Shown here piece by piece: positions 27,727 to 58,242 of a DNA stretch of 64,000 nt. A model generated the notes under the pieces. The model was given only the letters and a program-made list of their open reading frames with translations. It did not search any database and was not told the origin of the DNA. The position numbers and the translations under genes are program-made. The stretch's first letter is position 1, and every line of letters begins with the position of its first letter. The DNA lies in contig CP137323.1 of the NCBI GenBank assembly GCA_033182465.1, forward strand, positions 868,001-932,000. Direction: 5' to 3'. The stretch comes from Sanghuangporus weigelae. Lineage: Eukaryota > Basidiomycota > Agaricomycetes > Hymenochaetales > Hymenochaetaceae.

Positions 27727-28970
27727 AGCGCCTCCAACGATGTAACTATATCCCAAAGATGTTGTGTGTACGTGGTGGAACAAAAAAAGACATCCTCATC
27801 AAGTCCGTACTCACGATCTCTCTCAGGCAATGCAAAAATTGTAGCTTACGAATTATTCCATGCAATGATCTGATTTGAGCGGCATAAATCATGCTATATC
27901 CAAGGCTATCCATGGCTGAGTTTTTGTGGCATGTCTTGTGCTGTTTATGATAGAGCAGGGCAACATGCCAGCATGACTATTTGCAGGATTCCTCTCTCAG
28001 CATTGCATCTGCTATCGCTTATGCAGTTCAACAGCAAAAAATCTGATTCTTTCGGCTGAAATCATCTTCTAATTGATGCTTTCGGAATATGTGAGATTGA
28101 GTTCATTTGATGACTTGTATAGTTGTGGTATGTGAGTTGTTTTATGGTACAGGTCAGTACATGTACCTATCCCATTCGGTCGATGCTCTGAACAGCAATT
28201 GCAGCAGTGTCTGGAGCTAGGTCCATCAACGTCTTTGATTTCATCTTCGCATTTCAAGCCCAAGCAGACTAAGAAGCCTGAACAACAGACCGGTCGGCTG
28301 CAATCCGTTGTGCCTGTCATCGCTCGATGGAGTAAAAGTGTACAGCGAGCGCACACCTGCACCATCGTCTACAAGAAACAACCCCAATTGAACTCTTGTC
28401 TAACCAAAAGCAGGTGGAATCGCTACTATACAACACAGTCTGATTCTGCATATGTAGGTCAAAATACAAGGGAACTAGAGACCAGCCTGCATTCCTAAGA
28501 ACACATCATAGATAGGGAGATGAGGGGAGCATAACCTAGCGACACCTAATGTACACAAACACAATCGCAAAACGAAAAGGAGTACAGATGTGAGTCGGCA
28601 TAAGATGACTTGAAGCATAACAGAAATACAGAATGCAATCCTTTCGAGCAACAATCGCCAAACAAAACAAGGAAGGAAAGGCAAGGAGGGTGTTATTCCG
28701 CCCCTGAAGAGTAAGCGATCGTCCAGTCCATGATACTTTTGGCCTCTGATGGTACAGTAAGGCTGGATAGTCCCTGTCCCAGCTCACGCTGCCTCCACCT
28801 CTGGATCCGTTGTCCCCGACTCCTGGTTCGTCGGAACAGGGTTTAACAAATCCAGCCAATGCAACAGAATATGGTAATCCATATAACCCTTACTTCCCTC
28901 CCCTTCATCGCTTGAAAGACTTGAAGCCTGCTCTTCAATGAACGTGTCGATCGCTTTCTCTATCGTCCGC
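27727..28970. repeat. Arm 1 of a 1.24-kb inverted duplication
   Basis: This stretch reappears, reversed and nearly identical, at about 39,910-41,147. The outer limit is sharp: CCTCCAACGATGTAACTAT at 27732 against its complement near 41,140. The inner limit is in the 3' coding part of the coiled-coil gene, where similarity drops to paralogue level near 28,970. It contains the 3' end and downstream flank of that gene. Confidence 0.9.
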
Positions 28971-35105: not shown

Positions 35106-37835
35106 TCAATAGGTGGGCAACCTTCCATCCCTCTTGACATAAGTAACATCCTCCGTTGCATAATCATAAATGCGATTCACAAGCCCAATTGTCACATCTA
35201 TCCCTTCTGCCCTTGCCAAAGCTTCAATCTTGTCTGCATTCATTCTTGCAATATCATCGATCCTTGTGCAACCATTACTCGAGAACACGGGTGCTAATTT
35301 CTGGTATTCGTGGTTGTCCCTACCGCGCTCCAAATCATCCTCACATGCCTTAAGCCAATCTCCAATGGCCGGGTAGTTCAGCAGTCCTTTGAACATTGTA
35401 GGGGCTGAAATTTCTTGCGCTACTGCTACTCCAATGGGCACCACATGTGTATCTGTCTGTGCCTTGTGGGCTCGACTGTCAGAAAGAGGAAGCCCCTGAT
35501 TCACTCTTCCTGGCCTCTTGTAGTCGAGCAATTTTGCCGACATGGACTCTGGGACTTTATTAGCAATTGCATGCAACTCCCGCTATGCCTCATGATGTCC
35601 AGTTATTAGATCAGCAAGCAAAAAGAGTCAGACACGAAACTTACGAGTTTTTGCGCATGTTCCAAAATGAGGTCCGGGGTATAAACGCTGCAAGTTCCAT
35701 TATACTTCTCATAACATACATGGTTATGCACTTGGCAGAACATGGCGGCCTGGATACTCTTTGTTGCTTGAATGATCTTGTCGTCGGCAGAACCCTTAGC
35801 AGAAAATGTGGGATCTATCTGCTTTACTGCCTTTTTCATATGTATTGTCACTTGCGACTTCTGTGATTTTTGTCACACAGAACACCTCAAAATATAAAAA
35901 TCACCATATCTCATTCAATTCTTGACCGTTTTGCATGATATAAGTTTCTAAATTCATAGTTTTAAGATATGTTTCAAACTCCAACAAGGATGAAGAGAAA
36001 TGAGCAAAGAATGAGTGAGATATGTTGTAAAAGGTCAATTTTAGACACTTCCTTCATGTGCAGTTTTTCCTGCCCTCAGACTGGGTGCTACAACAATCTA
36101 GACTGCACCAAAGTGAGTCTATTGGTATAATATGAACTTACAGACATCAGATTTCCTAAGAATAAATTTATTTTGAGGTCTGGGAGTCCTTGAGAAAAGG
36201 TAGGTTTGAGCACAGCTCAGACATGCATCAAACCAGCAGATACAACACAGAATAGAGCTCAAAGTCAGTCTGTAAACTTAAAATAAAATAATCATATCAT
36301 TTTGGACTTGCTTAGGACTGTAGAAGCAGGGATGAGGGCAGGAAAAACTGCACATGAAAGATGTGTCTAAAATCGGCCTTTTACGACATATCTCACTCAT
36401 TCTTTGCTTACTTCTTTTCATCCTTGTTAGAGTTTGAAACATTTTCAAAAAATATGAGCTTAGCAACTTAGATTATGCAAAGCGGTCAAGAATTGAGTGA
36501 GATATGGTGATTTTTATATTTTGAGGTGTTCTGTGTGACAAAAAACACAGAAGTCGCAAGTGATAATACATATGAAAAAGGCAGTAATGGCCTACCTCTC
36601 GGCGCATCGGCTGCACGGACTGCTGTCTTCGTGACACTCTATAGCAGATCTCCTGAGTAAATGATGACCTATTCTCGGGAAATAGCTTACCTGAAGGATG
36701 TCCAACATATTACGAAAAATAATATTGCACGTAATCTCCTGGCCACGATTGCGGTGTTTGCTCTGTTGATCCTTTATGTACCTCCTATAGGCATCCCAGA
36801 ACTCCATAAGTTCATCTGGGTTGGACATATATGTAAGACTTCTCTTTGTTCCTATCTTCGAGCTTTAAGGAGCTTTGTAGCCAATTTCAACAAGATGATT
36901 TGGTCGTTTCATCGCTTGGGCGGTCTTCTCTAAAACATCAACGTGGCGGTCCAGAGATGATATGGTAACAGTTCGCTCTGCCAGTCCATCGTGGATCTTA
37001 ACCTTTATCTCTTGAATCTCCAGTTGTTCTTGGGCGCGACATATGTTCTTGCCTCTAGTTGAGTCTGATGAGACCAGTGATAATATGTCATCTTCATCAT
37101 GATTAGTCTAGGTCTCATTCAGCACCGAAAGCATGGAATTCATTACCGTCATCTTCAATTTCATTAAAATCAGAATCAGACAAAGGGATCGTGGAGTTTG
37201 CTATTCTGTCTGCAAGGACTTGTGCAAGCACGTCCTCCGTTAACTCCCCGCCAAATGTTCTGTCGTCAACAGGTTCTCCGTCAGAGGATAGTAAAAGGGT
37301 TTTCTTAATTGAGTCTCGATTCAGCACTCGAAAAATAAATGACGTACATTAAAGTCTGGATACCTCCGGAACTGAGTTTGAAAGGTGTTTGCATTTGTGA
37401 GGTTGGACAATGGGCTTCAGAAAAATTAGGACGTAGGGAGATCCATAATAGGCTAAGAATACCTTATTATTTTTGTCTCCTTCAGAATCCATAATGACAA
37501 CAGTGTCTCCCATCTCTAAATCGAAATGCTCCATCCTATGACATTCTTGCTGCTTCAGAGGTGGTCAATGGCAGATACAAGAGTTTCTTCTTTTTTATAA
37601 AAAAGAACATACCTGACTATCCCTGTCAGTTCCAGTCCTGTTTTGACACTGAATTTTCACGGCTTGAATAGCATGCTGCAACGAATATATAGAACCCAGC
37701 GCATGGCAGAAAAGATGGAACATACTTTAGCTTTATCAACGCACAAGTGAACATTTGAGTCCCGCTGTTCTGGTGCAACTTTGCAAAGGCATCCATGACC
37801 ATGCTTGATCGTAGGAACATCTTCAACAGCTGCAT
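35106..37835 (-). CDS. Unrecognised multi-exon gene with a MITE inside
   Basis: Exons with consistent frame are 37675-37613 and 37552-37463 (reading on from a Cys-containing stretch near 37,735-37,835), then 36828-about 36706 and the next exon ending 36596, 35821-35645 and 35582-35106. The C-terminal exon encodes a helical SAM-like domain (IGDWLKACEDDLERGRDNHE ... RMNADKIEALARAEGI); just upstream is a stretch with HNHVCYEKYNGTCSVYT. A helical segment (QEQLEIQEIKVKIHDGLAER) is readable near 36,950-37,100. Joins between 37,463 and 36,828 are unresolved. The region 36595-35822 between two exons consists almost wholly of MITE family B. I do not recognise the function; it may be a decaying gene. 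Confidence 0.4.
35827..36584. mobile_element. Foldback MITE family B, copy 1
   Basis: A 758-bp palindrome-like unit. Ends are CTGCCTTTTTCATATG and its complement, flanked by TA on both sides (35825-35826 and 36585-36586). The arms are about 350 bp, pairing for example AACTGCACATGAA near 36,345 with its complement near 36,055. No coding capacity. A second copy lies at 56681-57435 with the same ends and TA flanks. TA duplication fits a Tc1/mariner-mobilised MITE. Confidence 0.88.
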
Positions 37836-38249: not shown

Positions 38250-40091
38250 GTTGTAGGTGTGATTGAAAACCTCCAGAGGTTGAAAACTGAATTACCAGAA
38301 CGCTGAAATGACGCTACGACACGTCTGCTGAAGAAGATGGTGGACATGGTTGTCAAGCTTGCCAAAAACATGAGAACGTCGGTCGAGAAGACGGATTCAC
38401 AAGGCGAAGAGATCAAAGAACAGAAGAGTCTATTGGAGAAAGTCGAGAAGACAGTCAAGTCTAACATTGAGGAACAAGCCTTGTCAATGGCAGAACTGAT
38501 GGAAGTCTCGATGCTGCTGGAAGCAAAGGCCCTTGGAGTAAGCATGTCGCGTAATATCCAGATGCATCTTGTCTGACGCTGGCTTGTTCCTAGTACTGGG
38601 AAAGCCACGAGGCAATTGTCCTCCGCAGGAACCTTGATGATGTCCGCTTCGCCGTCACAAATAGATTCATGCTCACTTTGCCCCAGCATTTCACCGTTAA
38701 ACTTGTTAATTGTCGTTTGGTGGAAGTTTACCAACACTGTCATGAAGGCGTAGTGGGCTTTTCATGATTACAAACAATCGGATGAGGACAAGGAACATTA
38801 CTTCTGCATTCAGTACAAGAGCGTCTTTTCGAATCTTCCATGGAAAGGCAATGAGCTACATGCAGCTGTTGTCAACGAGGTTATGAGAAACCTCTCACCT
38901 AACGAGTTGTTTTGCAACGAGAGAGGCCGCTTGCTGCCAACGGATGTCACGCAGAAGGAGGAGCCAGAGAATGACACTTTGCTGAGACAAATGAGGTTCT
39001 TCGTGCCACGGCTCGTGTGGTGCTTCACATCGGCGAAAGATAACTTAATCTGAGCATACAACAAGGTCAATCACGAGAAAGCTTATATCAATTACTACAA
39101 AGAACTTCTCGACCGATTGACACGCGATGAAGGAACTGCTGAGGAGCTGTTGGCATGTGCCGGAACCAGAGCGCAACCAGAATGATAGGCAGCGTTTCGT
39201 TTACGGAACGGCTTTAGATATACGGGGACAGAAAACCTGGTGTGATGTACTCGAACTATTGTGCGATGGACGTGATATGAAGAAGAAATCACAAAAACGA
39301 AAGTCCGAAGACAATGGTGGCCCTTCAGCAAATCAGAAACCTTGTATCAACTTATCGACTTTGGCCAATAGTTACGCCGCTGAGGGACTCGCAAAGGTCC
39401 ACTCGACCTACTGGAGTGAACACCAACCCGACTGAAGTGCTCACAACCAGGAAGCTCCTTCCATTCCTTCCTCAGCACTAGAGCGCTCAGTTGTTCTCGC
39501 ATGGACCGAGCAGTGGGCTTCTTTATGTCCAGGCTATCCGATGCTAAGCAGGAATACGACTCTTGGAATACGAGGTTTAACACAATTTGCAAGTGCCTTT
39601 ACATTCTACTTTCCGAGAATCTCTGCAGAATGGCGGTAACCGGTCCACTAGCACTCCGAGACATATTAGACTATCTAGCACACCGCAGGCATACATTCGA
39701 CATCGATTACTTCGATGTCATAGAACACGTTGAAGATCTGATGAAGAAGACTGTGAATGATCTCAAGGGCTCCGACGTAGTAGGACTGGCAACTTCATTC
39801 CACAAAGCGATGGCGGAAGAAGAAAAATTAGGAATTGATTGCCGAAGTGAATTTGTGCGGGCATGTAAGGTTCTTCAAGATGACAACTACATCCAAAGTG
39901 AGGACGCGACGACAGAGAAAGCTATTGACATGTTCATCGAAGAGCAGGCTTCAAGTCTTTCAAGCGACAAAGGGGAGGGAAGTAAGGGTTATATGGATTA
40001 CTATATTCTGTTGCATTGGCTGGATTTGTTAAACCCTGTTCCGACGAACCAGGAGTCGGGGACAACAGATCCGGAGGTGGAGGCAGCGTGA
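38250..40091 (+). pseudogene. Decayed paralogue of the coiled-coil gene
   Basis: Aligns in order with the gene at 28784-30636. It has the helical segment KKMVDMVVKLAKNMRTSVEK ending in KALG at the same intron position, then WESHEAIVLRRNLDDVRFAV, a middle part, HRRHTFDIDYFDVIEHVEDL, and finally the shared acidic C terminus. A TGA at 38304-38306, a further stop near 38,769, a frame change before 38,770, and a TGA near 39,050 break it. The 5' two thirds are only distantly similar to the other copy, whereas the last 180 coding bases and the 3' flank are nearly identical, so the 3' part was copied or converted recently. Confidence 0.6.
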
Positions 40092-41147
40092 GCTGGGACA
40101 GAGACTATCCAGCCTTACTGTACTGTCAGAGGCCGAAAGTATCATGGACTGGACGATCGCTTACTCTTCAGGGGCGGAATAACACCCTCCTTGCCTTTCC
40201 TTCCTTGTTTTGTTTGGCGATTGTTGCTCGAAAGGATTGCATTCTATATTTCTGTTATGCTTCAAGTCATCTTATGCCGACTCACATCTGTACTCCTTTT
40301 CGTTTTGCGATTGTGTTTGTGTACATTAGGTGTCGCTAGGTTATGCTCCCCTCATCTCCCTATCTATGATGTGTTCTTAGGAATGCAGGCTGGTCTCTAG
40401 TTCCCTTGTATTTTGACCTACATATGCAGAATCAGACTGTGTTGTATAGTAGCGATTCCACCTGCTTTTGGTTAGACAAGAGTTCAATTGGGGTTGTTTC
40501 TTGTAGACGATGGTGCAGGTGTGCGCTCGCTGTACACTTTTACTCCATCGAGCGATGACAGGCACAACGGATTGCAGCCGACCGGTCTGTTGTTCAGGCT
40601 TCTTAGTCTGCTTGGGCTTGAAATGCGAAGATGAAATCAAAGACGTTGATGGACCTAGCTCCAGACACTGCTGCAATTGCTGTTCAGAGCATCGACCGAA
40701 TGGGATAGGTACATGTACTGACCTGTACCATAAAACAACTCACATACCACAACTATACAAGTCATCAAATGAACTCAATCTCACATATTCCGAAAGCATC
40801 AATTAGAAGATGATTTCAGCCGAAAGAATCAGATTTTTTGCTGTTGAACTGCATAAGCGATGGCAGATGCAATGCTGAGAGAGGAACCCTGCAAATAGCC
40901 ATGCCGGCATGTTGCCCTGCTCTACCATAAACAGACATGCCACAAAAACTCAGCCATGGATAGCCTTAGGTATAGCATGATTTATGTCACTCAAATCAGA
41001 TCATTGCATGGAATAATTTGTAAGCTACAATTTTTGCATTGCCTGAGAGAGATCGTGAGTACGGACTTGATGAGGATGTCTTTTTTTGTTCCACCACGTA
41101 CATACAACATCTTTGGGATATAGTTACGTCGTTGGAGGTGCGCTTTC
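39910..41147. repeat. Arm 2 of the 1.24-kb inverted duplication
   Basis: Reverse complement of 27727-28970 with only scattered differences (for example three to four amino-acid changes over 108 codons in one frame; none over a 98-codon frame at 40510-40806). The arms are 11 kb apart. Confidence 0.9.
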
Positions 41148-41619: not shown

Positions 41620-43336
41620 AAAATAAAGGCTGGCTGTTCTGGAATCCTCTTACCAGGAAGAAAGTTATCAGTGACTCTGCTTAGTTTGATGAGAGAGTGT
41701 TCCCTGGTACATCCAGAAACTTAGTTGACCTGAGGGTGAATCTGCCTCTACAGACAAAAAAAAAGAACAGGGGGGAGTAGAGGATGCTATTGTTCTGCCA
41801 GCTCCTCCTCCTCCACCTGCTCCTGGACATCCAGCAGATCCTCCTATACCTACACCTACACCTACACCCAGTCCTCCACCTAATCTATCACCTAGTCCTC
41901 CACCACATGGTCCTTCACATCATCCTTCTTCATCACCAGCTACTCATCCTCCAAAGCATGAACACACTACTTCACCACTGCCATCTGAGCAGGCCTCAAA
42001 AAAACAAAGGCTTACTTCTCCCTAGTGGCCAGATCCAATGTGGAGGCCTATTAGACATCATACCACTGGCTGGTGCGATATGGACTATGTTGGAAAGCAC
42101 CTTTCTAGACGTGTGCCAGGCTCTCCTGTTGCACCACAGCGCTTCAACTTCAACTCTGCAGAGCCAACTGCACCTGACACTGCTTCTGATACTGGCTCTG
42201 CAACTCAGCCAGACATTGTAGAGCAGCCAGAGCAAGATGCTGAGATGGACAGTGATTTACCTGATGAACTGGACATCATGTCAGAGGAGGAGTTGCAAGC
42301 TGAAGCACTGATGTTTGCTGGCCTCATAGATTTTGGTGCTAATGTAGGACTGGAGGACATTTATCTGTCTTATGAGGATGCTCTGGAATATGCATTTCAG
42401 ACATCTCATTGCGCTGAGCATGTGTTCTCTGCACAAGGAGTACAACACATCAGTCCTGAACCCTATCAGTGGATGGACATTAAAGGACGTCCTGATGCAG
42501 ACCTCTGGGAGAAGACAGCCATGGAGGAGTTTGTCAGTCTGATTGAGAATAGCACATTTGAGCCAGACAGACTGCCTTCTGGCAGAAAGCCTATTGGATG
42601 CAGATGGGTGTTCAAGCTCAAGCACAAGGCAGATGGATCTGTAGATAGGTAAAAGGTAAGGCTGGTGGCCAAGGGCTTCTCACAGCAGCCAGGACTTGAG
42701 TTCTCTCAAGTGTTTGCTCCTACAGCTAAGTGGGTTGCACTTAGAGCCATTGGCTGCATTTGAGGATCTTGAGTGTACAGTGTTGACATCTCTACTGCTT
42801 TCCTCAATGGTGAGATGGAGCATGATGTCTACATGAACCAGCCTGAAGGATTTGAGGACTACTTTGGCCCTGGATTTGTTCTCAAGCTGATCAAGTCTAT
42901 CTATGGCCTTAAGCAGGCTGGCCATCAATGGCACAAGAAGCTTGATTCAGTGATGAAGAGCATGGGCTTCAATCTAGTGCGCTGTGATTACAGCATCTGG
43001 GTGTACAGCAGGGATGAAGTGCGCATCATTATTCCAGTCTATGTTGATGACATGACCATTGCTGCAAAGTCCAAGCAGCAGTATGAGTCTGTCAGAGATG
43101 AGCTGGCCAAGCACTTCAAACTGCATGAACTAGGCCCAACCTCATTCCTACTAGGAGTCCACATTGAGAGAGACCGCTCTAAGCACTCTATCAAGAGCGC
43201 TTTAGCATGAACAACTATGGCACTGTCACTACTCCTCTCCCTGAGCAGAAGCTCAGCAAGAGCATGGCTCCTAAGACCCCTGTAGAGACTGAATATATGA
43301 AGCAAGTGCCCTACAAGTAATTGGTTGGTGCACTCA
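41620..43336 (+). pseudogene. Defective Copia pol fragment (direct arm)
   Basis: Corresponds to 49,646-51,420 of the intact Copia: the end of integrase, the Pro-rich linker and the first two thirds of reverse transcriptase including YVDD (about 43,050). It contains frameshifts in the linker, a TAA at 42650-42652, a small deletion at about 42,750, loss of two bases at about 42,772 and a deletion of about 42 bp near 43,192. Sequence identity to the intact element is high. It ends exactly where its inverted copy begins. Confidence 0.9.
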
Positions 43337-44299
43337 GGATTAGAACTGAAGCATCCCAAGACACCAACTGCATATGCAATGTCTGGCCTAGTAGCTATAG
43401 CCAGATACATGAGTGCACCAACCAATTGCTTGTAGGGCACTTGCTTCATATATTCAGTCTCTACAGGGGTCTTAGGAGCCATGCTCTTGCTGAGCTTCTG
43501 CTCAGGGAGAGGAGTAGTGACAGTGCCATAGTTGTTCATGCTAAAGCGCTCTTGATAGAGTGCTTAGAGCGGTCTCTCTCAATGTGGACTCCTAGTAGGA
43601 ATGAGGTTGGGCCTAGTTCATGCAGTTTGAAGTGCTTGGCCAGCTCATCTCTGACAGACTCATACTGCTGCTTGGACTTTGCAGCAATGGTCATGTCATC
43701 AACATAGACTGGAATAATGATGCGCACTTCATCCCTGCTGTACACCCAGATGCTGTAATCACAGCGCACTAGATTGAAGCCCATGCTCTTCATCACTGAA
43801 TCAAGCTTCTTGTGCCATTGATGGCCAGCCTGCTTAAGGCCATAGATAGACTTGATCAGCTTGAGAACAAATCCAGGGCCAAAGTAGTCCTCAAATCCTT
43901 CAGGCTGGTTCCTGTAGACATCATGCTCCATCTCACCATTGAGGAAAGCAGTAGAGATGTCAACACTGTACACTCAAGATCCTCAAATGCAGCCAATGGC
44001 TCTAAGTGCAGCCCACTTAGCTGTAGGAGCAAACACTTGAGAGAACTCAAGTCCTGGCTGCTGTGAGAAGCCCTTGGCCACCAGCCTTACCTTTTACCTA
44101 TCTACAGATCCATCTGCCTTGTGCTTGAGCTTGAACACACCCATCTGCATCCAATAGGCTTTCTGCCAGAAGGCAGTCTGTCTGGCTCAAATGTGCTATT
44201 CTCAATCAGACTGATGAAGTCCTCCATGGCTACTCTTCCAGAGGTCTGCATTAGAGCGTCCTTTGATGTCCTTCCACTGATAAGGTTCAGGACTGATAC
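43337..44299 (-). pseudogene. Inverted copy of the defective Copia RT fragment
   Basis: Reverse complement of about 42,452-43,336, plus 75 bp more of RT sequence at the centre. It shares the direct arm's private lesions: the same TAA, the same missing bases near the VDISTAF block and the same deletion before MNNYG. The two arms therefore arose from one damaged copy by inverted duplication. It ends at about 44,299 against a Gypsy fragment. Confidence 0.9.
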
Positions 44300-44304
44300 T
44301 TTTG

Positions 44305-44566
44305 TGATTTTAGAAAAAGCTTGTTACGTTGAAAAATCTCAAAAACCCATTTAGTTTGCTCACAGTGTTCTTCTAATGTGTTCGAGAGGATGAGTATATC
44401 GTCAAGGTAAATAACAACACCCTCATGAATCATTTCCAAAAGATAACGTTCATGAAGTCTGGAATGTCACTGGCACATTGTATAAACTAAAGAATATTAC
44501 CGTTGGTTTGAATAATCCCAGGTTCATCCTGAATGCTACCTTCTACTCGTCACCTTTGCAGATCCG
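44305..44566 (-). pseudogene. Gypsy reverse transcriptase fragment (C-terminal palm part)
   Basis: Read on the minus strand it begins with KGDE, a stop (TAG at 44545-44543 where the family has Trp), KVAFRMNLGLF, then a frame change and VVIYLDDILILSNT, the catalytic YLDD box of Ty3/gypsy RT, and FQRNKLFLKSQK. It continues the RT fragment at 52603-52960 codon for codon; the two were separated by insertion of repeat R. Confidence 0.85.
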
Positions 44567-44567
44567 G

Positions 44568-46067
44568 TGTAGTAGGTGTTGTGTGGTCTCTGAAGGCACT
44601 ACAGATGTCCATCCTACTAAGGGTGCTGAATGTATAAAGAAACCTTCAAAAACAAGATGCCAACACTATCAGACTCTAAATCCTCACTATCTAGCAGATG
44701 CCAGGAACTATTGGAGATGTGATGGACAAGTCTAGGGATGCCAAAGTATGAAAGGAATAAGCTAATAGGACCGCCACTTGAAAGGGGGGATTACAGGAGG
44801 CTGCTAACATGGTGTAAACTTAGACACAGGATCACTAGGAGCATATAAAATGAATATAAGGACTAAAATGGAGCGAGTGGGTGGATAAGGCACCAATGGG
44901 TCATCTGGTAGGATGCCTGTGTCATCGAAGGGTTGCTGACGTTAAATAGAGGGAGCAGGAACAAGAGAGAGGCTGTACAAGTCTGCCAAAGTAGAGTAAA
45001 CTCAATAGACAAAAGGAAAAGATTGTATAAGATCAATATATAAAATAAACTAGATTAAAGGCTTGAAAGGATGCTGCAGGGGAGTCTAATAAGAAACCTG
45101 GGTCACCAACATCAGATAAAGGGGTGTCGCATAGGTATCAAGTGTGGGAAGGAGGCTCAGGGTTAAATCCCGAGCCCTACTCACTGAACGTCAGAGTGGC
45201 AGAGGCATATCAGAGGTGGCAAAGGCAAGTAAAATGATAAGTCAAGCAAGAGGAGATGTCAATGATAGTATATGGTCAAGGGGGAGGCTTAGTATATGAG
45301 GAGAGACTCAGAGTGAGGTATATCTCGAACTCTGGCGCTCGATCTAGTCTATGTTCTACTTCCTTCCTAAGCTACAAGTTAATATAAGCTCTATATATAC
45401 TCTACTGCTGTCACCAACATATTCTACTGTCTAACAACATCTTCCAAGTCATCTGAGTTGGCAAGGGCCGCTGCTGGAGTGCCCAGGTGAAATCTATAAG
45501 CGGCAACGTGAGAGAGGCATCTAATGGCATGGAATATCAAGTATGTGAAATAGTACAAGCACTAGCGGAGTTGGGCTTGGCACACCAATATACCACATGC
45601 CTACCTTCCATATATGGTCTAATGGGGGCTACCACGTCGGGAGGAAGTCGGGAAACATCGGAGCCAATGATCAGAGGCTAATATTGTATATATGAGACAA
45701 GAGGTGCATAGTCAGTGTTCCTGAGATGTCCGATGCATTGGCGGCACTCAATACAGAGTGTGGATGATCCTTAGTGACTAATATAAGTGGCTGGAGTGGC
45801 AGTACCGCAGGGGACTGCAGGACTGGTGGCAGATACGTTGTGATGAGGCATATAAACAAATATGACAATATATAGCTCCCTAGGCAATGGGAGACTGCTT
45901 AGTAAGCTATAAGATGCATCAGTGAGGGTACCTGAGAATGTCTGAGGGTCCGCTGCATTAATCAGCACCATAGAGGGCCAACTCAGAGTCATCCAGAGTC
46001 ACTATAAGGCTATATGTATGGTACATTGTAAGATCAGCAGCCTGTAGTCACTGAGGAATGTGTCCTA
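44568..46067. repeat. Repeat R copy 1, left part
   Basis: Starts TGTAGTAGGTG directly after the Gypsy RT codons and runs to the Copia insertion; its right part is 52344-52602. Total length is about 1.76 kb. It is related to 61710-62655 and 62656-64000. Compared with them it shows TG or CA at most places where they have CG. No coding sequence recognised. TG start and its position inside Gypsy show that R is mobile; it may be an LTR or a non-autonomous element. Confidence 0.75.
46063..46067. repeat. Copia target site duplication, left
   Basis: TCCTA immediately before the 5' LTR, repeated at 52339-52343 immediately after the 3' LTR. Confidence 0.9.
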
Positions 46068-46319
46068 TGTTAGAAGTGTGATTCTGACACTGTTAGTATT
46101 TTGTTGTTTCTTATTCTGTTTATATTGTTTGTTATGTCCGCTTTCTTGATCATGTGATGCTTATGTAATCTTCTGTAAAAGCGGCACAGTCCATTGGTGA
46201 GTACCCTACATCAAGTGTACTCACCACTGGACTCAGGTATGTAGTTAGACTGTTAATATACATCAAGTATACTCACCACTGGACTCAGTGGTCCATTGCT
46301 GGACTTGTGTGATCTAACA
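46068..46319 (+). repeat. Copia 5' LTR
   Basis: 252 bp, TGTTAGAAG ... GATCTAACA. It differs from the 3' LTR at three positions, all transitions. It holds two direct copies of a segment with ACTCACCACTGGACTCAG and one inverted copy of the same motif. The internal region begins GGTTATGAGCC, probably the primer-binding site; I cannot name the tRNA. Confidence 0.95.
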
Positions 46320-47505
46320 GGTTATGAGCCTTGAGCTCTAGCTGTCTGCACTGCCGCATTTTTGAGTTTTTGGGTTTGGAGAGCTGCTGTTGTTGTCAGA
46401 GAAGCTTTTGGTGTTCTGGACTGGCCTTTTGGTGTGTTCCCAGTGTTCCCATCACCTTCTGCACCCTTCTGTGCAGTTTCCACAGTCCCAGAGCCCTCTG
46501 CTGCTTTCTTTGGCTGTTATCAGTGCCAAATCTCCCCAAAACTTCGCCGCTTGATTGCTCCACAACCGTCCAGCCGTGTTTGACGCCCTTTGGCACGTTT
46601 ACTCGGCCCATATAGGCCTACTGTCCTGCCGAGTTTCAGCCCGATCCGTCGCAATTTGACGCTGCTGCAGCCCTATCAATTTGGGCTATCTTCGAACTTC
46701 TATTGCCTATTCCGGAGGAACCGCTGATCCGTTTCTCACGAAACTTGGCACGTCTATTTGGCCTATTGCAACGTCCTTTGTCGCGAAGTTTCAGCCAAAT
46801 CGGTCAAGAACTCGCCGACTTATTGCAGGTTCTCTGTTTTGAACCTCATTTTGCCAATTTCCGATTTTCTCGGCATCCGTTGATCCGATCCAGACGCCCT
46901 TTGGTGTGCATATGGCTCCCATACCTCTGCACCCTTCCACCAAGTTTCAGCTTAATCGGCTGCGGTTTGACTGCGCTGCTAGCTGTTCTTGTTCTGTCGG
47001 AAATCGTTGATTGCCGCCGATCTGCCGATCCGATCCGCGTGATCTTTACACCGTTCGACTCGGCTCGTCGTCCTCTATCTGCGTGCCAATTTGCGCACCA
47101 ATCCGCCTATCCGTTCCCTCTCTGCGCTGCATTTTGTGTCTGGCAGCTCTGGTGTTAATTGGTGTGTGGCTCCATCACTGTTGTTGGATCAGCCTAGCCT
47201 ACAGACTGTGAAGCTTGCCTGCCCGGCCTTAGTTCGCTGGTTGTAGTCGCTCTTTGAGTGTCTACTTAAGCCTAGAGCCTCTCTCAGTTAGCGGTGCCTG
47301 CGGGGTCTTAGCAGACCAACAGACCAGCACTGTCTTGCGGCAAATCTGTGTATACTTCAGTGACTGTAGAAGACTGCACTGGTTGGCATTGATCTGTCAC
47401 CTCCAGACATAAATTTGTTAGCGCTCTCTCCCTCATTACTCCCTCACTGCTTATTTCTTCTGAGCATCACTTGTCCACTCTCATCCACACCTCATTCCAA
47501 CAATC
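46320..47505 (+). other. Copia leader with degenerate 156-bp tandem repeats
   Basis: A 1.19-kb untranslated leader, C/T-rich. Three units recur with a period of about 156 bp; each has AAGTTTCAGCC-like followed by an ATCGG-like sequence (46631, 46786, 46942). It should hold the RNA dimer and packaging signals. Open frames inside it do not resemble known proteins. Confidence 0.6.
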
Positions 47506-50500
47506 ATGTCTGATCCTGTCACCTCTGAGACGCTATCCACCATCACCAAGCTCAATGACAGCAATTACTCTGTCTGGAAGCATGATATGCGTGCTACACT
47601 TCAAGTCAAGAAGTTGTGGCGCCTGACCTCTGGTCAGGAAGCTAAGCCTAGTGCTCCAGATGATGCTGTTCAGCTCTGGGAAGAGAAGGCTGAGCAAGCT
47701 GCTGGCCTGATCTATCAGAGAATTGAGCATAGCATGCAGGTCATGGTGCAGGACTACATGGATGATCCAGTCAAGATGTGGACTGAGCTTCAGAAGATCA
47801 ATGAGCAGGACAACCCAGCTGCGCGCTTTAATGCTTATGATGAGTTCTTCAACATCACCAAGAAGGAAGATGAGTCCCTCACCAACCTGGTGAGCAGGGT
47901 TGAGCTGGCATTGCACAAGATCAGAAGCACTCGTTCTACCACCCTCAAGCTTGAGGAGTTTGAGAATGAGCTTGCATGTGCATGCCTGATACGTGCTCTT
48001 CCTGAGGACTATGCCTCCTTTCGCTCTGCAGTGCTCCTTATGAAGGAATTCAAGTGGAATAACCTCAAGGAAGCATTTGCTCAAGAGCAGCAGAACCGTC
48101 AAGAGCGTGTCCAGCTTCAGCCCCAGGCCATGTTCACATCCACCAGTAGTGCTGCTAAGCCTATCTCCTCTCAAAATGTCACTTGCACATTCTGTGGCAT
48201 TCCTAAGCACACTGAGGAGAACTGCCATATGAAGCAGGCAGCCTCTAAGGATGCACATGCCAGGGCTAAGAGAAACAGGGAAGAGAAGAGGAGGAGAGGC
48301 TGGAAGGGCCAGAAGGCCCATATTGCTCAAGATGAATCTGCTGAATCTGCTGAATTTGCTGGCAATGCAAGTGCTCTTGACTTCACCAATCCCCATTCAC
48401 CTCTTATCCCAGATGCAGGAACTGACTGGATTGCTGACACAGGTGCCACTTGCCACATGACTCCACATCGTCATTGGTTCACCAAATACTCAACAAATCA
48501 CACTCCAATTCGTTTAGCCAACAACCAAGTTATTTATTCAGTTGGCATTGGCACAGTGCACTTTCAGCCTGTAGTTGGTGGCAAACCTGGACAGTTACTT
48601 GAATTTGAGCATGTATTACATGTTCCTGATCTTAGAAACAATCTCCTCTCAGTCCTGTATTTGACTCGCTCCAAATCATATGTTGTCACCATTCATCATA
48701 ACAAAATGCTTTTCTATCGTCATAGATCAGTCCTGTTCACTGCAAACATCACTCCCAACAATGCAGCAAGTCTCAATGGCCACATTGTCCCCACTATTGC
48801 TTATGCTGCATTTACAAGCACCTGTCCACTTGACACTACACTTTGGCACAGGCGCTTTGCACACCTTAATCATGGTGATGTGAACAGGTTGATGACTGAG
48901 GAGTTGGTCAAGGGAATGGTTATCAAGTCCAAGAGCACTCCAGATCCTATCTGTGAACCTTGCATTGCTGGCAAGCAGCACAGGTCTAATGTCTCCAATA
49001 ATGTCTCCAAACTTGCATCTCACAGAGCTTCTGATCTCCTTCAATTGGTCCACTCTGCCGTTCATGGTCCATTGCCTGTCCAGTCTAGACATGGCTTCAA
49101 GTATTGGATCACCTTCATTGATGATTACAGTCGCTACTGGGCTGTTCTCCCTTTGAAGAAGAAGAGTGATGCATTTGCTGCCTTCAAACAATTTAAGGCC
49201 TATGCAGAGAATCAATTGGGAGTAAAGATTAAGGCCACTCGTGATGATAAAGGTGGAGAGTATGTGTCTAAGGAATGGGACCAGTTCTGCATCACTGCAG
49301 GCATCCACAGGCAGCACACTATTAGAGATGAACCTCATCAGAATGGTGTTGCAGAGCGTGCCAACAGAACACTTGCAGAGGGCATCACTACTATGCTTAA
49401 TGAAGCGCATTTGCCCTCTACCTTCTGGTGGGATGCAGTTGCAGCATTTGTGCATGTGCACAACCACTCTCCCACCTCTGCTGTGTCTGCCAGTACACCC
49501 TATAAGCTCTGGTACCAGTCAAAGCCAGATGTCTCTCACCTGCGTGTATTTGGGTGCACCTCCTATGTGCTTGTGAAGAAAGATCAACACAAGCAGCTGC
49601 AGTCCTACACACAGAAATGTGTGTTCCTAGGCTACCCCTCCAATTATAAAGGCTGGCTGTTCTGGAATCCTCTTACCAGGAAGGAAGTCATCAGTGACTC
49701 TGCTCAGTTTGATGAGAGAGTGTTCCCTGGTACATCCAGAAACCCAGTTGACCTGAGGGTGAATATGCCTGCACAGACAGAAGACCTGCCAGAACAGAGG
49801 GGAGTAGAGGATGCTATTGATGTTCTGCCAGCTCCTCCTCCTCCACCTGCTCCTGGACATCCAGCAGATCCTCCTATGCCTACACCTACACCTACACCCA
49901 GTCCTCCACCCAATCCATCACCTAGTCCTCCACCACATGGTCCTTTACATCATCCTCCTTCACCACCAGCTACTCATCCTCCAAAGCGTGAACATACTAC
50001 TTCACCTCTGCCATCTGAGCAGGCCTCAAAGAAACAAAGGCCTCCTTCTCCCTGGTGGCCAGATCCAATGTGGAGGCCTATTAGACGTTATACCACTGGC
50101 TGGTGGGATGTGGACTATGTTGGAAAGCGCCTTCTCAGACGTGTGCCAGGCTCTCCTATTCCACCACAGCGCTTCAACTTCAACTCAGCAGAGCCAACTG
50201 CATCTGACACTGCACCTGACACTGCTTCTGAAACTGACTCTGCAGCACAGCTAGATGTTGTAGAGCAGCCAGAGCAGGATGTTGAGATAGACAGTGATTC
50301 ACCTGATGAACTGGACATCATGTCAGAAGAGGAGTTGCAAGCTGAAGCACTGATGTTTGCTGGCCTGATGGATTTTGGTGCTAATGCAGGACTGGAGGAC
50401 ATCTATCTGTCTTATGAGGATGCTCTGGAATATGCACTTCAGACATCTCATTGCGCTGAGCATGTGTTCTCTGCACAAGGTGTGCAACACATCAGTCCTG

Positions 50501-52059
50501 AACCCTATCAGTGGAAGGACATCAAAGGACGCCCTGATGCAGACCTCTGGGAGAAGGCAGCCATGGAAGAATTTATCAGTCTGATTGAGAATGGCACATT
50601 TGAGCCAGTCAGACTGCCTCCTGGCAGAAAGCCCATTGGATGCAGATGGGTGTTCAAGCTCAAGCGCAAGGCAGATGGATCTGTGGACAGGTACAAGGCA
50701 AGGCTGGTAGCCAAGGGATTCTCACAGCAACCAGGACTTGAATTCTCTCAGGTGTTTGCTCCTACAGCCAAATGGGCTGCACTTAGAGCTATCCTGGCAT
50801 TGGCTGCATTTGAGGACCTTGAGCTGTACAGTGTTGACATCTCTACTGCTTTCCTCAATGGTGAGATGGAGCATGATGTCTACATGAACCAGCCTGAAGG
50901 ATTTGAGGACTACTTTGGCCCTGGATTTGTTCTCAAGCTGATCAAGTCTATCTATGGCCTTAAGCAGGCTGGCCACCAATGGCACAAGAAGCTTGATTCA
51001 GTGATGAAGAGCATGGGCTTCAAGTTAGTGCGCTGTGATTACAGCATTTGGGTGTACAGCAGGGATGAAGTGTGCATCATTATTCCAGTCTATGTTGATG
51101 ACATGACTATTGCTGCAAAGTCTAAGCAGCAGTATGAATCTGTCAGAGATGAGCTGGCCAAGCACTTCAAACTGCATGAACTGGGCCCAACCTCATTCCT
51201 ACTAGGAGTTCACATTGAGAGAGACCGCTCTAAGCACTCTATCAGTCTGTCACAGAGACAATACATTATTGATGTGCTAGAGCGCTTCAGCATGAGCAAC
51301 TGTGGCACTGTTACTACTCCTCTCCCTGAGCAGAAGCTCAGCAAGAACATGGCTCCCAAGACCCCTGCAGAGATTGAATACATGAAGCAAGTGCCCTACA
51401 AGCAATTGGTTGGTGCACTCATGTATCTGGCTATAGCTACAAGGCCAGACATTGCATATGCAGTTGGTGTCTTAGGACGCTTTAGTTCTAATCCTGGTCC
51501 AACTCATTGGAAGGCAGCAAAGCATTTATGTCGCTATCTGCAGGGCACCAAGGATTTCAGGCTAACCTATGCACCTGATCCTAAGTCCTCTGAGCTGTTC
51601 ACTACCTTCTGTGATGCTGACCATGGAGGAAATGAGGATAACAGGCGCTCCACAAGTGGGATGGTTGTCAAGCTGGGAACTGGTGCTATCAGCTGGGCTA
51701 GCAAGCTACAGCCCTTTGTGACTCTGTCCACCACTGAAGCAGAATACATTGCTGCTGTCAGTGCAGGACAAGAGATTATGTGGCTTAGAAATCTGTTTAC
51801 AGAGTTTGGCTACAAGTTTGATGCACCTTCTTCCCTGTACATTGATAACCAGTCTGCTCTGTCTGTGGCAAACAATCCTGAGCATCATGGACGCATGAAA
51901 CACCTAGATCTGCGCTTCTACTGGTTGAGAGATGTTGTAGAGGCTGGTCATATCAATGTGCATTACTTGCCTACTCAGACCATGCCAGCTGACATCATGA
52001 CCAAAGCACTAAGCAGAGTGAAGGTGCAGGAGATGTGTAGGATGCTGGGATTATGTTGA
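47506..52059 (+). CDS. Copia (Ty1/copia) gag-pol polyprotein, single frame
   Basis: One uninterrupted frame of 1,517 codons. Order: gag (about 1-225, UBN2-type), CCHC zinc knuckle C227-C230-H235-C240, protease DTGAT (D311), GAG-pre-integrase (LWHRRFAHLNHG and CEPCIAGKQ), integrase core, a Pro-rich linker (about 760-840), RT with YVDD (D1198/D1199), and RNase H with FCDAD, STTEAEY, YIDNQSAL and HLDLRFYW. In the integrase the second Asp (DDKGGEY) and the Glu (NGVAERAN) are present, but the first catalytic Asp, normally in HSDV.GP, is Ala518 (codon GCC at 49057-49059). So copying could still be possible, while normal integration should fail unless helped in trans. Confidence 0.96.
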   Translation: MSDPVTSETLSTITKLNDSNYSVWKHDMRATLQVKKLWRLTSGQEAKPSAPDDAVQLWEEKAEQAAGLIYQRIEHSMQVMVQDYMDDPVKMWTELQKINEQDNPAARFNAYDEFFNITKKEDESLTNLVSRVELALHKIRSTRSTTLKLEEFENELACACLIRALPEDYASFRSAVLLMKEFKWNNLKEAFAQEQQNRQERVQLQPQAMFTSTSSAAKPISSQNVTCTFCGIPKHTEENCHMKQAASKDAHARAKRNREEKRRRGWKGQKAHIAQDESAESAEFAGNASALDFTNPHSPLIPDAGTDWIADTGATCHMTPHRHWFTKYSTNHTPIRLANNQVIYSVGIGTVHFQPVVGGKPGQLLEFEHVLHVPDLRNNLLSVLYLTRSKSYVVTIHHNKMLFYRHRSVLFTANITPNNAASLNGHIVPTIAYAAFTSTCPLDTTLWHRRFAHLNHGDVNRLMTEELVKGMVIKSKSTPDPICEPCIAGKQHRSNVSNNVSKLASHRASDLLQLVHSAVHGPLPVQSRHGFKYWITFIDDYSRYWAVLPLKKKSDAFAAFKQFKAYAENQLGVKIKATRDDKGGEYVSKEWDQFCITAGIHRQHTIRDEPHQNGVAERANRTLAEGITTMLNEAHLPSTFWWDAVAAFVHVHNHSPTSAVSASTPYKLWYQSKPDVSHLRVFGCTSYVLVKKDQHKQLQSYTQKCVFLGYPSNYKGWLFWNPLTRKEVISDSAQFDERVFPGTSRNPVDLRVNMPAQTEDLPEQRGVEDAIDVLPAPPPPPAPGHPADPPMPTPTPTPSPPPNPSPSPPPHGPLHHPPSPPATHPPKREHTTSPLPSEQASKKQRPPSPWWPDPMWRPIRRYTTGWWDVDYVGKRLLRRVPGSPIPPQRFNFNSAEPTASDTAPDTASETDSAAQLDVVEQPEQDVEIDSDSPDELDIMSEEELQAEALMFAGLMDFGANAGLEDIYLSYEDALEYALQTSHCAEHVFSAQGVQHISPEPYQWKDIKGRPDADLWEKAAMEEFISLIENGTFEPVRLPPGRKPIGCRWVFKLKRKADGSVDRYKARLVAKGFSQQPGLEFSQVFAPTAKWAALRAILALAAFEDLELYSVDISTAFLNGEMEHDVYMNQPEGFEDYFGPGFVLKLIKSIYGLKQAGHQWHKKLDSVMKSMGFKLVRCDYSIWVYSRDEVCIIIPVYVDDMTIAAKSKQQYESVRDELAKHFKLHELGPTSFLLGVHIERDRSKHSISLSQRQYIIDVLERFSMSNCGTVTTPLPEQKLSKNMAPKTPAEIEYMKQVPYKQLVGALMYLAIATRPDIAYAVGVLGRFSSNPGPTHWKAAKHLCRYLQGTKDFRLTYAPDPKSSELFTTFCDADHGGNEDNRRSTSGMVVKLGTGAISWASKLQPFVTLSTTEAEYIAAVSAGQEIMWLRNLFTEFGYKFDAPSSLYIDNQSALSVANNPEHHGRMKHLDLRFYWLRDVVEAGHINVHYLPTQTMPADIMTKALSRVKVQEMCRMLGLC

Positions 52060-52077
52060 AGGAAGAAGTGTCAGATC

Positions 52078-52086
52078 AGGGGGGAG
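52078..52086 (+). promoter_or_regulatory. Copia polypurine tract
   Basis: AGGGGGGAG directly before the 3' LTR, the expected plus-strand primer site for reverse transcription. Confidence 0.85.
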
Positions 52087-52338
52087 TGTTAGAAGTGTGA
52101 TTCTGACACTGTTAGTATTTTATTGTTTCTTATTCTGTTTATATTGTTTGTTATGTCCGCTTTCTTGATCATGTGATGCTTATGTAATCTTCTGTAAAAG
52201 CGGCACAGTCCATTGGTGAGTACCCTACATCAAGTGTACTCACCACTGGACTCAGGTATGTAGTTAGACTGTTAATACACATCAAGTGTACTCACCACTG
52301 GACTCAGTGGTCCATTGCTGGACTTGTGTGATCTAACA
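52087..52338 (+). repeat. Copia 3' LTR
   Basis: 252 bp, TGTTAGAAG ... GATCTAACA, followed by the TSD TCCTA at 52339-52343. 249 of 252 positions match the 5' LTR. Confidence 0.95.
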
Positions 52339-52343
52339 TCCTA

Positions 52344-52960: not shown

Positions 52961-53100
52961 CACAAACAATTCCTCACTAAAGATGTTGTCAAGTAGTTTT
53001 TATAATTGATAATATCTATGCAAATAGACTTAACTAATATACTACTTCTGAGTCAACCAGATTATTTATGCAATTAGGTAGTTTTCCTAGTTATTTGTTA

Positions 53101-54184
53101 TAGCTAGTTGCAAAATTGTTGGCAATCACGTGATTTCACCACTTTTCTCACCATGAGAGCCTCAAAACACAGATAAAATCTTATCTCACCCAAATCTTAA
53201 CGGTTTCACATCATCTAAGTTGCTAAATTCATCTTTTCGAAAGGGCTTTTGTTTAGGAAAAATGATTGAGAAAATGGAGCAAAACATGTCCCCAAAATGG
53301 CGAAAATCTCGTTTTTTGCCTCTTCCTTGCATGTGCATTTTTTTCTGTGATCCCTGCTGGTCCAGCACCTCCCCAAAGCTATCCAGAATGATAATATGAT
53401 TATAAAATGAATTCACAAACTGAGTTTGAGTTGAATTGTGTACCAGAATGTGCTGCTTTGAGGCATGCCTGAATCACTCAAAACTCATCATTTCCCCCTA
53501 GCCTCCAAGGCTCCAGGAAAAATTCTTACAGGCCAGATTCATGCATGTAAATTCATTTTAGATGTAATAGACTAGGTTTGTGCACTAGCTAGGGCCTCAG
53601 CATCCACTGGTGAGCTGGGAAGATGCTGTCTAAAATGATGCATACAACCAGAATCTCATGTTCAGGCCAGCTCACCAGTGGATGCTGAGGACCTAGCTAG
53701 CACATAAACCTAGTCTATTATATCTAAAATGAATTTACATGTATGAATCTAGCCCATAAGAATTTTTCCTAGAGCCTGGGAGCCTGGGGGGAAATGATGA
53801 GTTTTGAGTAATTCAGGCATGCCTCAAAGCAGCACATTCTGGTACACAATTCAACTCAAACTCAGTCTGTAAATTCATTTTATAGTCATATTATCATTCT
53901 GGATAGCTTTGGGGAGGTGCTGGACCAGCAGGGATCACAGAAAAAAATGCACATGTAAGGAAGAGGCAAAAAACGAGATTTTCGCCATTTTGGGGTCATT
54001 TTTTGCTCTATTTTCTCGACTATTTTTTTGAAATGAAAGCCCTTTCGAAAAGATGAATTTAGCAACTTAGATGATGTGAAACCGTTGAGACTTGGGTGAG
54101 ATATGATTTTATCTGTGTTTTGAGGCTCTCATGGTGAGAAAAGTGGTGAAATCACGTGATTGCCAACAATTTTGCAACTAGCTG
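53101..54184. mobile_element. Foldback MITE family A, complete copy
   Basis: A 1,084-bp inverted repeat with arms of about 530 bp and a short loop near 53,630. Ends are (T/C)AGCTAGTTGCAAAATTG, flanked by TA on both sides (53099-53100 and 54185-54186). No coding capacity. Inserted in the Gypsy element between RT and protease. Confidence 0.88.
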
Positions 54185-54186
54185 TA

Positions 54187-54699
54187 AAACTCATAAGCCC
54201 ATAAGGTAGTTATTCATTTCTAACTTCATAAATGATCACTTATAGTGTCATACATAGAATTTGGGTTGATTGAAGTACCTCTGTAGAAGTTGAATGGGTT
54301 GCATGGTTCTTTGATGATTATTGTATTATTCCTAGAATTATTCAGTAAGCCCATACATTCTTTACTGTACAAGCAGGTTTCATTCATACATCATTAGACG
54401 TATCAAATTCGACAATTTTAAAGAGGAATGATATTATGATGAGTGTTAGAGCCTTTTGCAGTATTCACAAACTGTCTTGTGTTGTTGCGAATTATGTCTG
54501 TTAGCAATGAGATGTGACCGCTATTAGTTATTATGTAATATATTTATAGCCTGACAATGTCTGTGTACTCTTCTAGGTAAGGTGGCCACTTTGTCACCTC
54601 GCCCAACTGCACCTTTCATGCATACTCATCATCTGCCTCCTCCTTTGATAGTATAGATGCACATTCATTAGGACAGTAGGTGAAGTTATGTTTTTGTAA
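54187..54699. other. AT-rich remnant between MITE A and Gypsy protease
   Basis: Should correspond to the Gypsy segment between protease and RT, but I see no readable frame. Confidence 0.4.
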
Positions 54700-56517: not shown

Positions 56518-56680
56518 TTAAAGGTCAAGTTGCTCTCCCTGTTGGCGCACTTGCTCGCTCGCCTTATAGGCAGAGCTTATTAAGCATTATTAAGCATTAC
56601 AAAGCAAGGCCAAGAAAATAAACTAAAAATAGAACTCAAATGCACTTGCTTATATAAGAAAATTAAGTTTGGCCTTCTTA

Positions 56681-57435
56681 CTGCCTTTTTCATATGTATT
56701 GTCACTTGCGACTTCTGTGATTTTTGTCACACAGAACACCTCAAAATATAAAAATCACCATATCTCACTCAATTCTTGACCGTTCTGCATGATCTAAGTT
56801 TCGAAATTTATAGTTTTAAAATATGTTTCAAACTCTAACAAGGATGAAGAGAAATGAGCAAAGAATGAGTGAGATATGTCGTAAAAGGTTGATTTTAGAC
56901 ACTTCCTTCATGTGCAGTTTTTCCTGCCCTCAGACTGGGTGCTACAACAACCTAGACTGCATCAAAGTGATGCTATTGGTATAATATCACAGACATCAGA
57001 TTTCCTAAGAATAAATTTATTTTGAGGTCTGGGGGTCCTTGAGAAAAGGTAGGTTTGAGCTCAGCCAAGACATGCATCAAACCAGCAGATACAACACAGA
57101 ATAGAGCTTAAAGTCAGCCTGTAAACTTAAAATAAAATAATCATATCATTTTGGACTTGCTTATAGGACTGTAGAAGCAGGGATGAGGGCAGGAAAAACT
57201 GCACATGAAAGATGTATCTAAAATCGACCTTTTACGACATATCTCACTCATTCTTTGCTCATTTCTCTTCATCCTTGTTAGAGTTTGAAACATATTTTAA
57301 AACTATGAGTTTAGCAACTTAGATTATGTAAAACAGTCAAGAATTGAGTGAGATATGGTGATTTTTATATTTTGAGGTGTTCTGTGTAACAAAAATCACA
57401 GAAGTCGCAAGTGACAATACATATGAAAAAGGCAG
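56681..57435. mobile_element. Foldback MITE family B, copy 2
   Basis: 755 bp, same CTGCCTTTTTCATATG ends and TA flanks (56679-56680 and 57436-57437) as the copy at 35827-36584, and about 95% alike by eye. Inserted within decayed Gypsy sequence. Confidence 0.88.
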
Positions 57436-57437
57436 TA

Positions 57438-58242
57438 ATATAGAATCTGGTTTCCATCTCGGCTTCTTGTTCTGCAAGTCTAAAGCTTATATCTCTTTAT
57501 GGTATCCTAACAAAGATCGGACTGCCTCCTGATTTGGTCATGACATATGCCTAAGCATTGACTTATTGTAACGTAGTCGTTGATAGGGAGACTGAATTGT
57601 CTTGTACAAATCTAGACTTATACCCTCAATTCTAGTGCGCATTATTAGTCTGCTTCAGGTCAATAAGCGATTTGAATATCTCTGAACGGGGACCTTAAAG
57701 AAGCTTGTTGGACCCTGTATAGCTTAGACCAATTCAGTATAAATTATATATGAGTGACGGCGCGGTCTTCTCAATTCGTATCTTCTCAAAATGCCTTCTC
57801 ACAGCCCTTTTATACACCTTTCACACATGTGGCATTGTATGAAGAAGGTATTGAGGTTAATTTGTAGGCCTCATTGGATCACTATTGAATAGCTACAGTA
57901 AGTGTTGGCATTGATATCCAAGTTGATTTCTTCTGATGTGGTATTAGAATCATGATTGAGACAACTGTTATGACTAGGGTGGAGCCGCTTTTTTTGGTAG
58001 TTTCACATTGCTATCACCCAATGCTTATCTGGTATAGGCTTCTGTCATTATGCTCTTGCTTTCCTTTCTGATCGCACTAGTAGAGAGCATGCAAATGAGC
58101 TGAATCTGAGTTTCAAGGATTTATATATCACATCTTGTAGAGCTATTGTTTAATAATAACGACGGATCCTGTGCTATTCCTTATGTTTATGTCTAGGCAA
58201 TTTTATAGCCTGACATCGTTCTAACATTTACGCCTGGTCATC
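57438..58242. other. Decayed sequence downstream of Gypsy gag
   Basis: AT-rich, no readable frame or repeat. Expected to be the Gypsy gag-protease junction and other insertions. Confidence 0.4.

Follow-up and report, generated by a model that had tools for sequence, protein, structure and literature searches.

The window analysed here, a stretch of 64,000 nucleotides at C6:868001-932000 in the 33.87-Mb genome (13 contigs) of Sanghuangporus weigelae, carries an inverted repeat with two arms of 888 bp (42449-43336 and 43410-44297) facing each other across a spacer of 73 bp (see Table). The arms belong to two Copia fragments, both ~90-91% identical to the polymerase region of an LTR-flanked copy of the same family present nearby. 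The arms contain polymerase sequence only, with no LTR; the junction between the two copies, where they overlap by 2 bp, likewise lacks one. The 73-bp centre is not foreign DNA, as it continues the right copy and is 94.5% identical to the LTR-flanked copy.

In the LTR-flanked copy, the order of Pfam domains (gag, rve, RVT_2) together with the LTRs and the 5-bp target site duplication identify a Copia-type LTR retrotransposon; its two LTRs have 3 differences. In a protein search with Copia the first named relative was Hohenbuehelia grisea (65%); another protein search gave Gymnopus androsaceus and Agrocybe chaxingu, among other mushrooms, at 72-73%, which suggests an agaricomycete. A preliminary description of this DNA had placed an intact Copia 3.2 kb from the repeat; this distance is right for the open frame, which starts at 47506, while the element itself begins 1.77 kb away. 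Family LTRs were found in the window only at 46068 and 52087, and both face away from the repeat.

Table. Features of the inverted repeat and its surroundings in the window, and inverted Copia pairs in other clusters
Feature	Position	Strand	Comment
Left Copia fragment	41623..43336	+	90.8% identical to 49646-51421 of the LTR-flanked copy; inner end is the left arm
Outer left arm	42449..42607	+	~8% different from outer right arm; not homogenised
Inner tract, left half (putatively homogenised)	42608..43336	+	3 differences in 729 bp
Right Copia fragment	43337..44297	-	opposite strand; includes the 73-bp centre
Spacer	43337..43409	-	73 bp; junction with the left copy overlaps by 2 bp
Inner tract, right half (putatively homogenised)	43410..44138	-	3 differences in 729 bp
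Outer right arm	44139..44297	-	not homogenised; best match at most 92% among 28 loci compared
Flank of right arm	44298..44564		no closely similar copy elsewhere; top match 77%, in C4
Dispersed repeat	44565..46067		stops where the Copia LTR starts
LTR-flanked Copia	46068..52338	+	LTRs 46068-46319 and 52087-52338; 5-bp repeats 46063-46067 and 52339-52343
Copia gag-pol frame	47506..52059	+	1517 aa; Pfam Retrotran_gag_2, rve, RVT_2
C12 pair			arms 6,069 bp, 100% identical; spacer 1,798 bp
C3b pair			arms ~7.6 kb; 4 differences in 6,114 bp and 3 in 1,406 bp; spacer 195
C3a pair			arms 3,098 bp, 99.3% identical
C13 pair			arms 5,065 bp, 97.9% identical; spacer 723
C2 pair			arms 4,688 bp, 94.6% identical

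Other repeats are present in the window as well. A near-perfect palindrome of 1,090 bp (53098-54187), 91% identical to its own reverse complement over the full length, represents a family with ~40 near-complete copies scored out of 217 candidates in the genome. A second dispersed family, ~762 bp long with 255-bp inverted ends, is seen at 35824-36588 and 56678-57439 (40 of 206 candidates scored). These two palindromic families are dispersed over the contigs, yet many of their copies are near Copia clusters too. There is also a second inverted pair, 27728-28967 and 39908-41141 (1.24 kb, 97.3%), which was not matched by the Copia probes and gave no Pfam match in the frames tried. No Pfam match was obtained for 10 reading frames from the non-Copia repeats of the window, and Rfam had no match anywhere in it.

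Similarity between the arms is distributed unevenly. The inner 729 bp have 3 differences; the outer 159 bp, with 157 aligned sites, have 12 (~8%) and small indels in addition; this outer divergence is as large as that between other Copia copies. When viewed by blocks, the arms show 10 differences in 247 positions (plus 6 gap positions) followed by 3 in 638. With 729 bp of near-perfect complementarity, the inverted repeat cannot be a chance occurrence. One could suspect that an error of assembly or polishing had made the arms identical; we consider this extremely improbable, since the arms retain an outer part with 8% difference and a defined centre, their flanks differ, and on other contigs, too, mosaic arms have diverged blocks lying between identical ones.

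Lesions shared by the arms, and rare or absent elsewhere, were found mainly in the inner tract. Both arms carry the stop codon at 42650-42652, which is missing from every one of the 20 other copies that can be read at this site (among 27 rows surveyed, 6 do not reach the site and 1 is gapped). Three deletions in the inner tract are common to both arms; two of them were seen in no other copy examined and one is also present in a copy on C5. Five substitutions of the inner tract are common to both arms and absent from all the other copies examined. The sole deletion found in the outer part is present in the right arm only, and private substitutions of the outer 159 bp comprise three common to both arms, two confined to the left arm and five confined to the right; the three shared ones suggest that a small part of the outer arms may have a common history as well. 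Each of the two window copies is nearest to the other (1.7%), with the next nearest copies 4.9-5.2% away.

Since the private lesions are shared, sequence has been copied between the arms over the inner tract. The preliminary description had stated that two nearly identical arms point at each other around a short centre, that both carry a private TAA at 42650 and the same deletions, and that one arm was copied from the other. The arrangement is real, with outer limits within 3 bp of those given, and the stop codon is indeed private to the two arms; near-identity, common deletions and copying hold for the inner 729 bp, with the reservation that one of the deletions is shared with C5, and do not extend to the outer 159 bp. 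We attempted to find the donor arm by comparing the inner tract, the outer parts and the flanks with other copies; correlations were weak and mixed, and neither direction was favoured.

Sharp-edged identical tracts combined with arm-private variants, the features of a gene-converted repeat, are thus present in C6, and we infer from them that the copying would have been homologous gene conversion. A single event of inverted duplication could be proposed instead: a broken or stalled strand folds back, copies the inner 729 bp and then switches template for the outer 159 bp. It would leave much the same pattern as conversion, and the extension of the 729-bp tract exactly to the centre, the short asymmetric spacer with the 2-bp overlap at the junction and the lesions common to both arms all agree with it. 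However, the outer right arm differs by at least 7% (substitutions) from every copy compared, a set to which the C7 and C11 copies do not belong; thus, no source for the template switch was found. Furthermore, like patchiness is seen in C13, C2 and C3a as well as in head-to-head pairs of C10 and C11 with copies 9.1 and 12.9 kb apart. We therefore regard the fold-back event as rather unlikely, and gene conversion as the better explanation of the inner tract.

Considering the whole genome, we saw that this Copia family is restricted to one cluster per contig and has no match elsewhere, the counts of matches being lower bounds. The 885-bp arm probe gave at least 37 matches (32 of 32 candidates scored); with the LTR probe of 252 bp there were at least 46 (40 of 59 candidates scored). 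With either probe the matches were confined to one cluster per contig on all 13 contigs. Together, the LTR clusters span 167 kb of the 33.87 Mb. None of the Copia clusters is situated at a contig end, the clusters of C13 and C5 being ~80 kb and ~100 kb from one, respectively. A telomere pattern, four units of TTAGGG, had no match on either strand (simple repeats were perhaps skipped by the search), so the contigs need not be whole chromosomes. Several LTRs are without much the same stretch after position 169 (C12:1066245-1066444, C9:927639-927837 and C1:3784063-3784262); this is perhaps a loss of one internal direct repeat, either recurrent or shared.

The clusters measured are poor in CpG. 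The ratio of observed to expected CpG in the lowest 2-kb step was 0.05-0.22 in the 10 of 13 clusters measured; within the window it is ~1.1 in the genic first 25 kb versus 0.09-0.14 in the Copia stretches measured. Such depletion would be the expected trace of long-standing cytosine methylation. The open frame 47506-52059 is itself nearly CpG-free (0.14, versus 1.08 in the window's first 25 kb), which would fit a family that has long resided in methylated DNA and yet stayed open.

The Copia clusters are most likely centromeres, because a single cluster-exclusive Copia cluster per chromosome marks the putative centromeres in Agaricus bisporus and in Ganoderma leucocontextum. The assignment is putative, being drawn from sequence.

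The clusters were read over 40 kb each in C1-C5, 64 kb in C6, 10-20 kb in C8, C10, C12 and C13 and 3.9 kb in C9; C7 and C11 were read only around their Copia copies. We found five longer inverted Copia pairs, with arms of 3.1-7.6 kb and identity up to 100%; the window pair is the shortest of the six homogenised tail-to-tail Copia pairs. These six are located on 5 of the 13 contigs (C2, C3, C6, C12 and C13, with C7-C11 read in part), and the 40-kb stretches of C1, C4 and C5 had no such pair. The C5 stretch had no inverted pair of at least 500 bp at 94% or more, save one self-palindromic dispersed repeat. A non-Copia inverted pair with 1.8-kb arms (98.4% identical, the inner end being more diverged) is situated at C4:2665473-2669976. 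On C1 there is an inverted pair of 1.5 kb (95%) whose Copia identity is not established.

Patchy identity is not a peculiarity of the window. The C13 arms differ by 0.8% over the outer 750 bp and by ~6% over the next 1.5 kb, and have no differences in the inner 2.6 kb; the two C13 copies are ~3.4% or more from all the compared copies on other contigs and have 0 differences from each other over 1,833 compared columns, so that C13, too, shows the tracts and the distance to other copies that characterise gene-converted repeats. The C2 arms differ by up to 18% in places, then by 0.2% over a 1-kb block, then by 6%; identity is patchy in C3a and in the non-Copia pair of C4 as well. In C3a the inner part is more diverged than the outer one; hence, homogenisation has no single polarity. 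In the C3b pair one arm has an extra 1.6 kb.

Identity arranged in blocks indicates copying between arms; two siblings inserted independently would not produce it. Sibling insertion of identical elements does not explain the mosaics of C6 and C13; for C12 and C3b, where the arms are LTR-bounded and 99.8-100% identical, it is possible.

Another conceivable reason for the inverted arms is function: the centromere may depend on them, as it does in Candida tropicalis and fission yeast. Inverted homogenised pairs do occur in several putative centromeres; however, the tail-to-tail Copia ones were found on 5 of 13 contigs (C7-C11 read in part), none in the 40 kb of C1, C4 or C5, and spacer sizes vary, which makes such a role very unlikely. 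An inverted-repeat centromere on every chromosome was rejected, given the 40-kb C5 stretch without a pair and the 5 contigs of 13, with C7-C11 read in part.

Orientation was examined in all the same-contig copies sharing at least 400 columns within the polymerase region (1,851 bp), which gave 23 pairs (pairs with fewer than 400 shared columns were omitted, and C1, C8 and C9, with one usable copy each, had no pair). An identical run of at least 250 bp was present in 8 of 15 inverted pairs versus 0 of 8 direct pairs (Fisher two-sided p = 0.019, an optimistic value as pairs share copies; the 250-bp cut-off was set after the runs were known). By class, tail-to-tail pairs had such a run in 6 of 9 cases, head-to-head pairs in 2 of 6 and direct pairs in none of 8. 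The two head-to-head cases are C10 (281 bp, copies 9.1 kb apart) and C11 (638 bp, 12.9 kb apart); no long tract was seen in the remaining four head-to-head and three tail-to-tail pairs. With the cut-off at 300 bp and a set of 20 pairs the counts were 6 of 8 for tail-to-tail pairs versus 0 of 12 for the others.

Direct pairs at comparable distance (843 bp to 13 kb) are 5.2-7.9% different; the longest run among them, 157 bp in C6, is above chance (p = 0.007). Loss of near-identical direct pairs by recombination could be behind part of the contrast between inverted and direct pairs. Between contigs, 226 pairs differed by at least 3%, and 10 of these had a run of no less than 300 bp; all ten involve two C13 copies against five young copies and probably represent one event.

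Taking these observations together, we consider the window repeat to be old Copia debris in a likely centromere, with its inner tract homogenised by gene conversion between inverted neighbours (probability about 0.7). The reading builds directly on the structure, the shared lesions, the sharp change of identity, the single cluster per contig and the confinement of long tracts to inverted pairs among those compared. The course of events would be as follows. Two old, defective Copia copies came to lie tail to tail, with their 3′-ends facing, in the C6 cluster; presumably one Copia was nested in another and the central tails were lost afterwards. Conversion from arm to arm, before or after the loss of the centre, would have made the inner 729 bp near-identical and given both arms the same private lesions, without reaching the outer 159 bp, which stayed different. 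On C2, a copy that has both of its LTRs is situated inside an opposite-strand copy whose remainder follows on the far side, i.e. a nested insertion; the C2 pair may thus represent an earlier stage of the proposed route. In C13 and C3a the LTR of the right copy abuts a broken left copy.

The preliminary description had also suggested a silencing role for the repeat: a transcript across it would fold into long dsRNA matching the intact Copia, a layout like that of maize Mu killer. Such a hairpin, with 0.7 kb of dsRNA over the inner tract, would feed RNAi against intact Copia copies. The genome encodes RdRP, Piwi and Dicer-dimer families and has four DNA-methylase matches; RNA-guided silencing is therefore available in principle. 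A third of the 21-mers of the inner left arm (237 of 709) match the LTR-flanked copy exactly, and the strong CpG depletion of Copia suggests long-standing methylation. On the other hand, none of the family LTRs found in the window points into the repeat, the arms have polymerase sequence only, and the reading frames tried near the repeat gave no Pfam match besides those of Copia itself. Inverted pairs elsewhere are longer and several of them (C12, C3, C13) are more identical; thus, any silencing could have its source in a pair other than the window repeat. Young Copia copies, 0.4-2.1% apart, are still present in seven clusters. The proposed role has no specific support in the window, and a hairpin acting against Copia appears quite improbable here; a dedicated silencer is possible without being the reading that the sequence favours. 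Putative sources of dsRNA would be better sought in the C12 and C3 pairs, which have LTR-bounded copies in facing orientation.

The likeness to Mu killer is partial. Mu killer is an inverted duplication of a part of a transposon that could silence relatives; it contains terminal repeats and sits between two genes (PMC3440606). The window repeat is likewise an inverted duplication of a part of a transposon; however, its arms have no LTR and no LTR was found pointing in, though fungal promoters of an unrecognised kind may be present.

One could speculate that inverted centromeric Copia pairs make up a working part of the centromere: the LTR-driven pairs of C12 and C3 would make dsRNA keeping the clusters methylated, conversion between inverted neighbours would renew the arms, and short LTR-less pairs of the window type would be worn-out relics. 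Improbable as we find it, such an organisation would be an Agaricomycete parallel, built from retrotransposons, to the inverted-repeat centromeres of fission yeast and C. tropicalis.

Beyond the window, the larger finding is that putative mushroom centromeres contain a set of inverted Copia pairs with homogenised arms. In the open-licence literature, as far as titles and abstract openings tell, there was nothing on conversion between the arms of such pairs in mushrooms. If debris homogenised by conversion is the right reading, one genome records the evolution of centromeric retrotransposons in mushrooms: neighbours in opposite orientation would overwrite each other in tracts from 0.25 kb to at least 2.6 kb, whereas the direct neighbours compared do not. 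It would also provide a sequence-only test of recombination inside centromeres, usable on other long-read mushroom genomes. Near-perfect long inverted repeats in such clusters would then be expected debris and, taken alone, no evidence for a silencing locus.

Among known systems, the closest in distribution are two mushrooms. Copia-28 of A. bisporus is present in all, and only in, the single large repeat clusters of the chromosomes (PMC7473861). As here, the Copia is cluster-exclusive and many copies are truncated; the clusters are heavily methylated there and CpG-depleted here, they span 110-280 kb there, and the main text of that account has neither ‘inverted’ nor ‘palindrom’ (PMC7473861). 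Copia-28 and the present family are likened here by distribution. In G. leucocontextum, the Copia LTRs designated GlCEN427 are present on all 13 chromosomes and there exclusively in the predicted centromeres; paired and solo LTRs, with orientations drawn in a figure, are akin to the copies described here, the LTR length being ~427 bp there versus ~252 bp here, and arm-to-arm conversion was not found in the centromere passages of that account (PMC10817607).

Homogenisation within a centromere has a precedent in C. tropicalis, where inverted repeats within a centromere resemble each other more closely than they do those of other centromeres and homogenisation has been proposed; the repeats are present at all seven centromeres and their inverted order matters for CENP-A loading (PMC4741521). 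Unlike in C. tropicalis, the pairs described here are present in some clusters only and are made of transposon copies. In maize, conversion of CRM2 was reportedly tracked by genetic markers in crosses, whereas the tracts described here are situated between neighbouring inverted copies in one assembly. With this difference, gene conversion among centromeric retrotransposon markers has been described for CRM2 in the cores of maize centromeres (PMC2834711).
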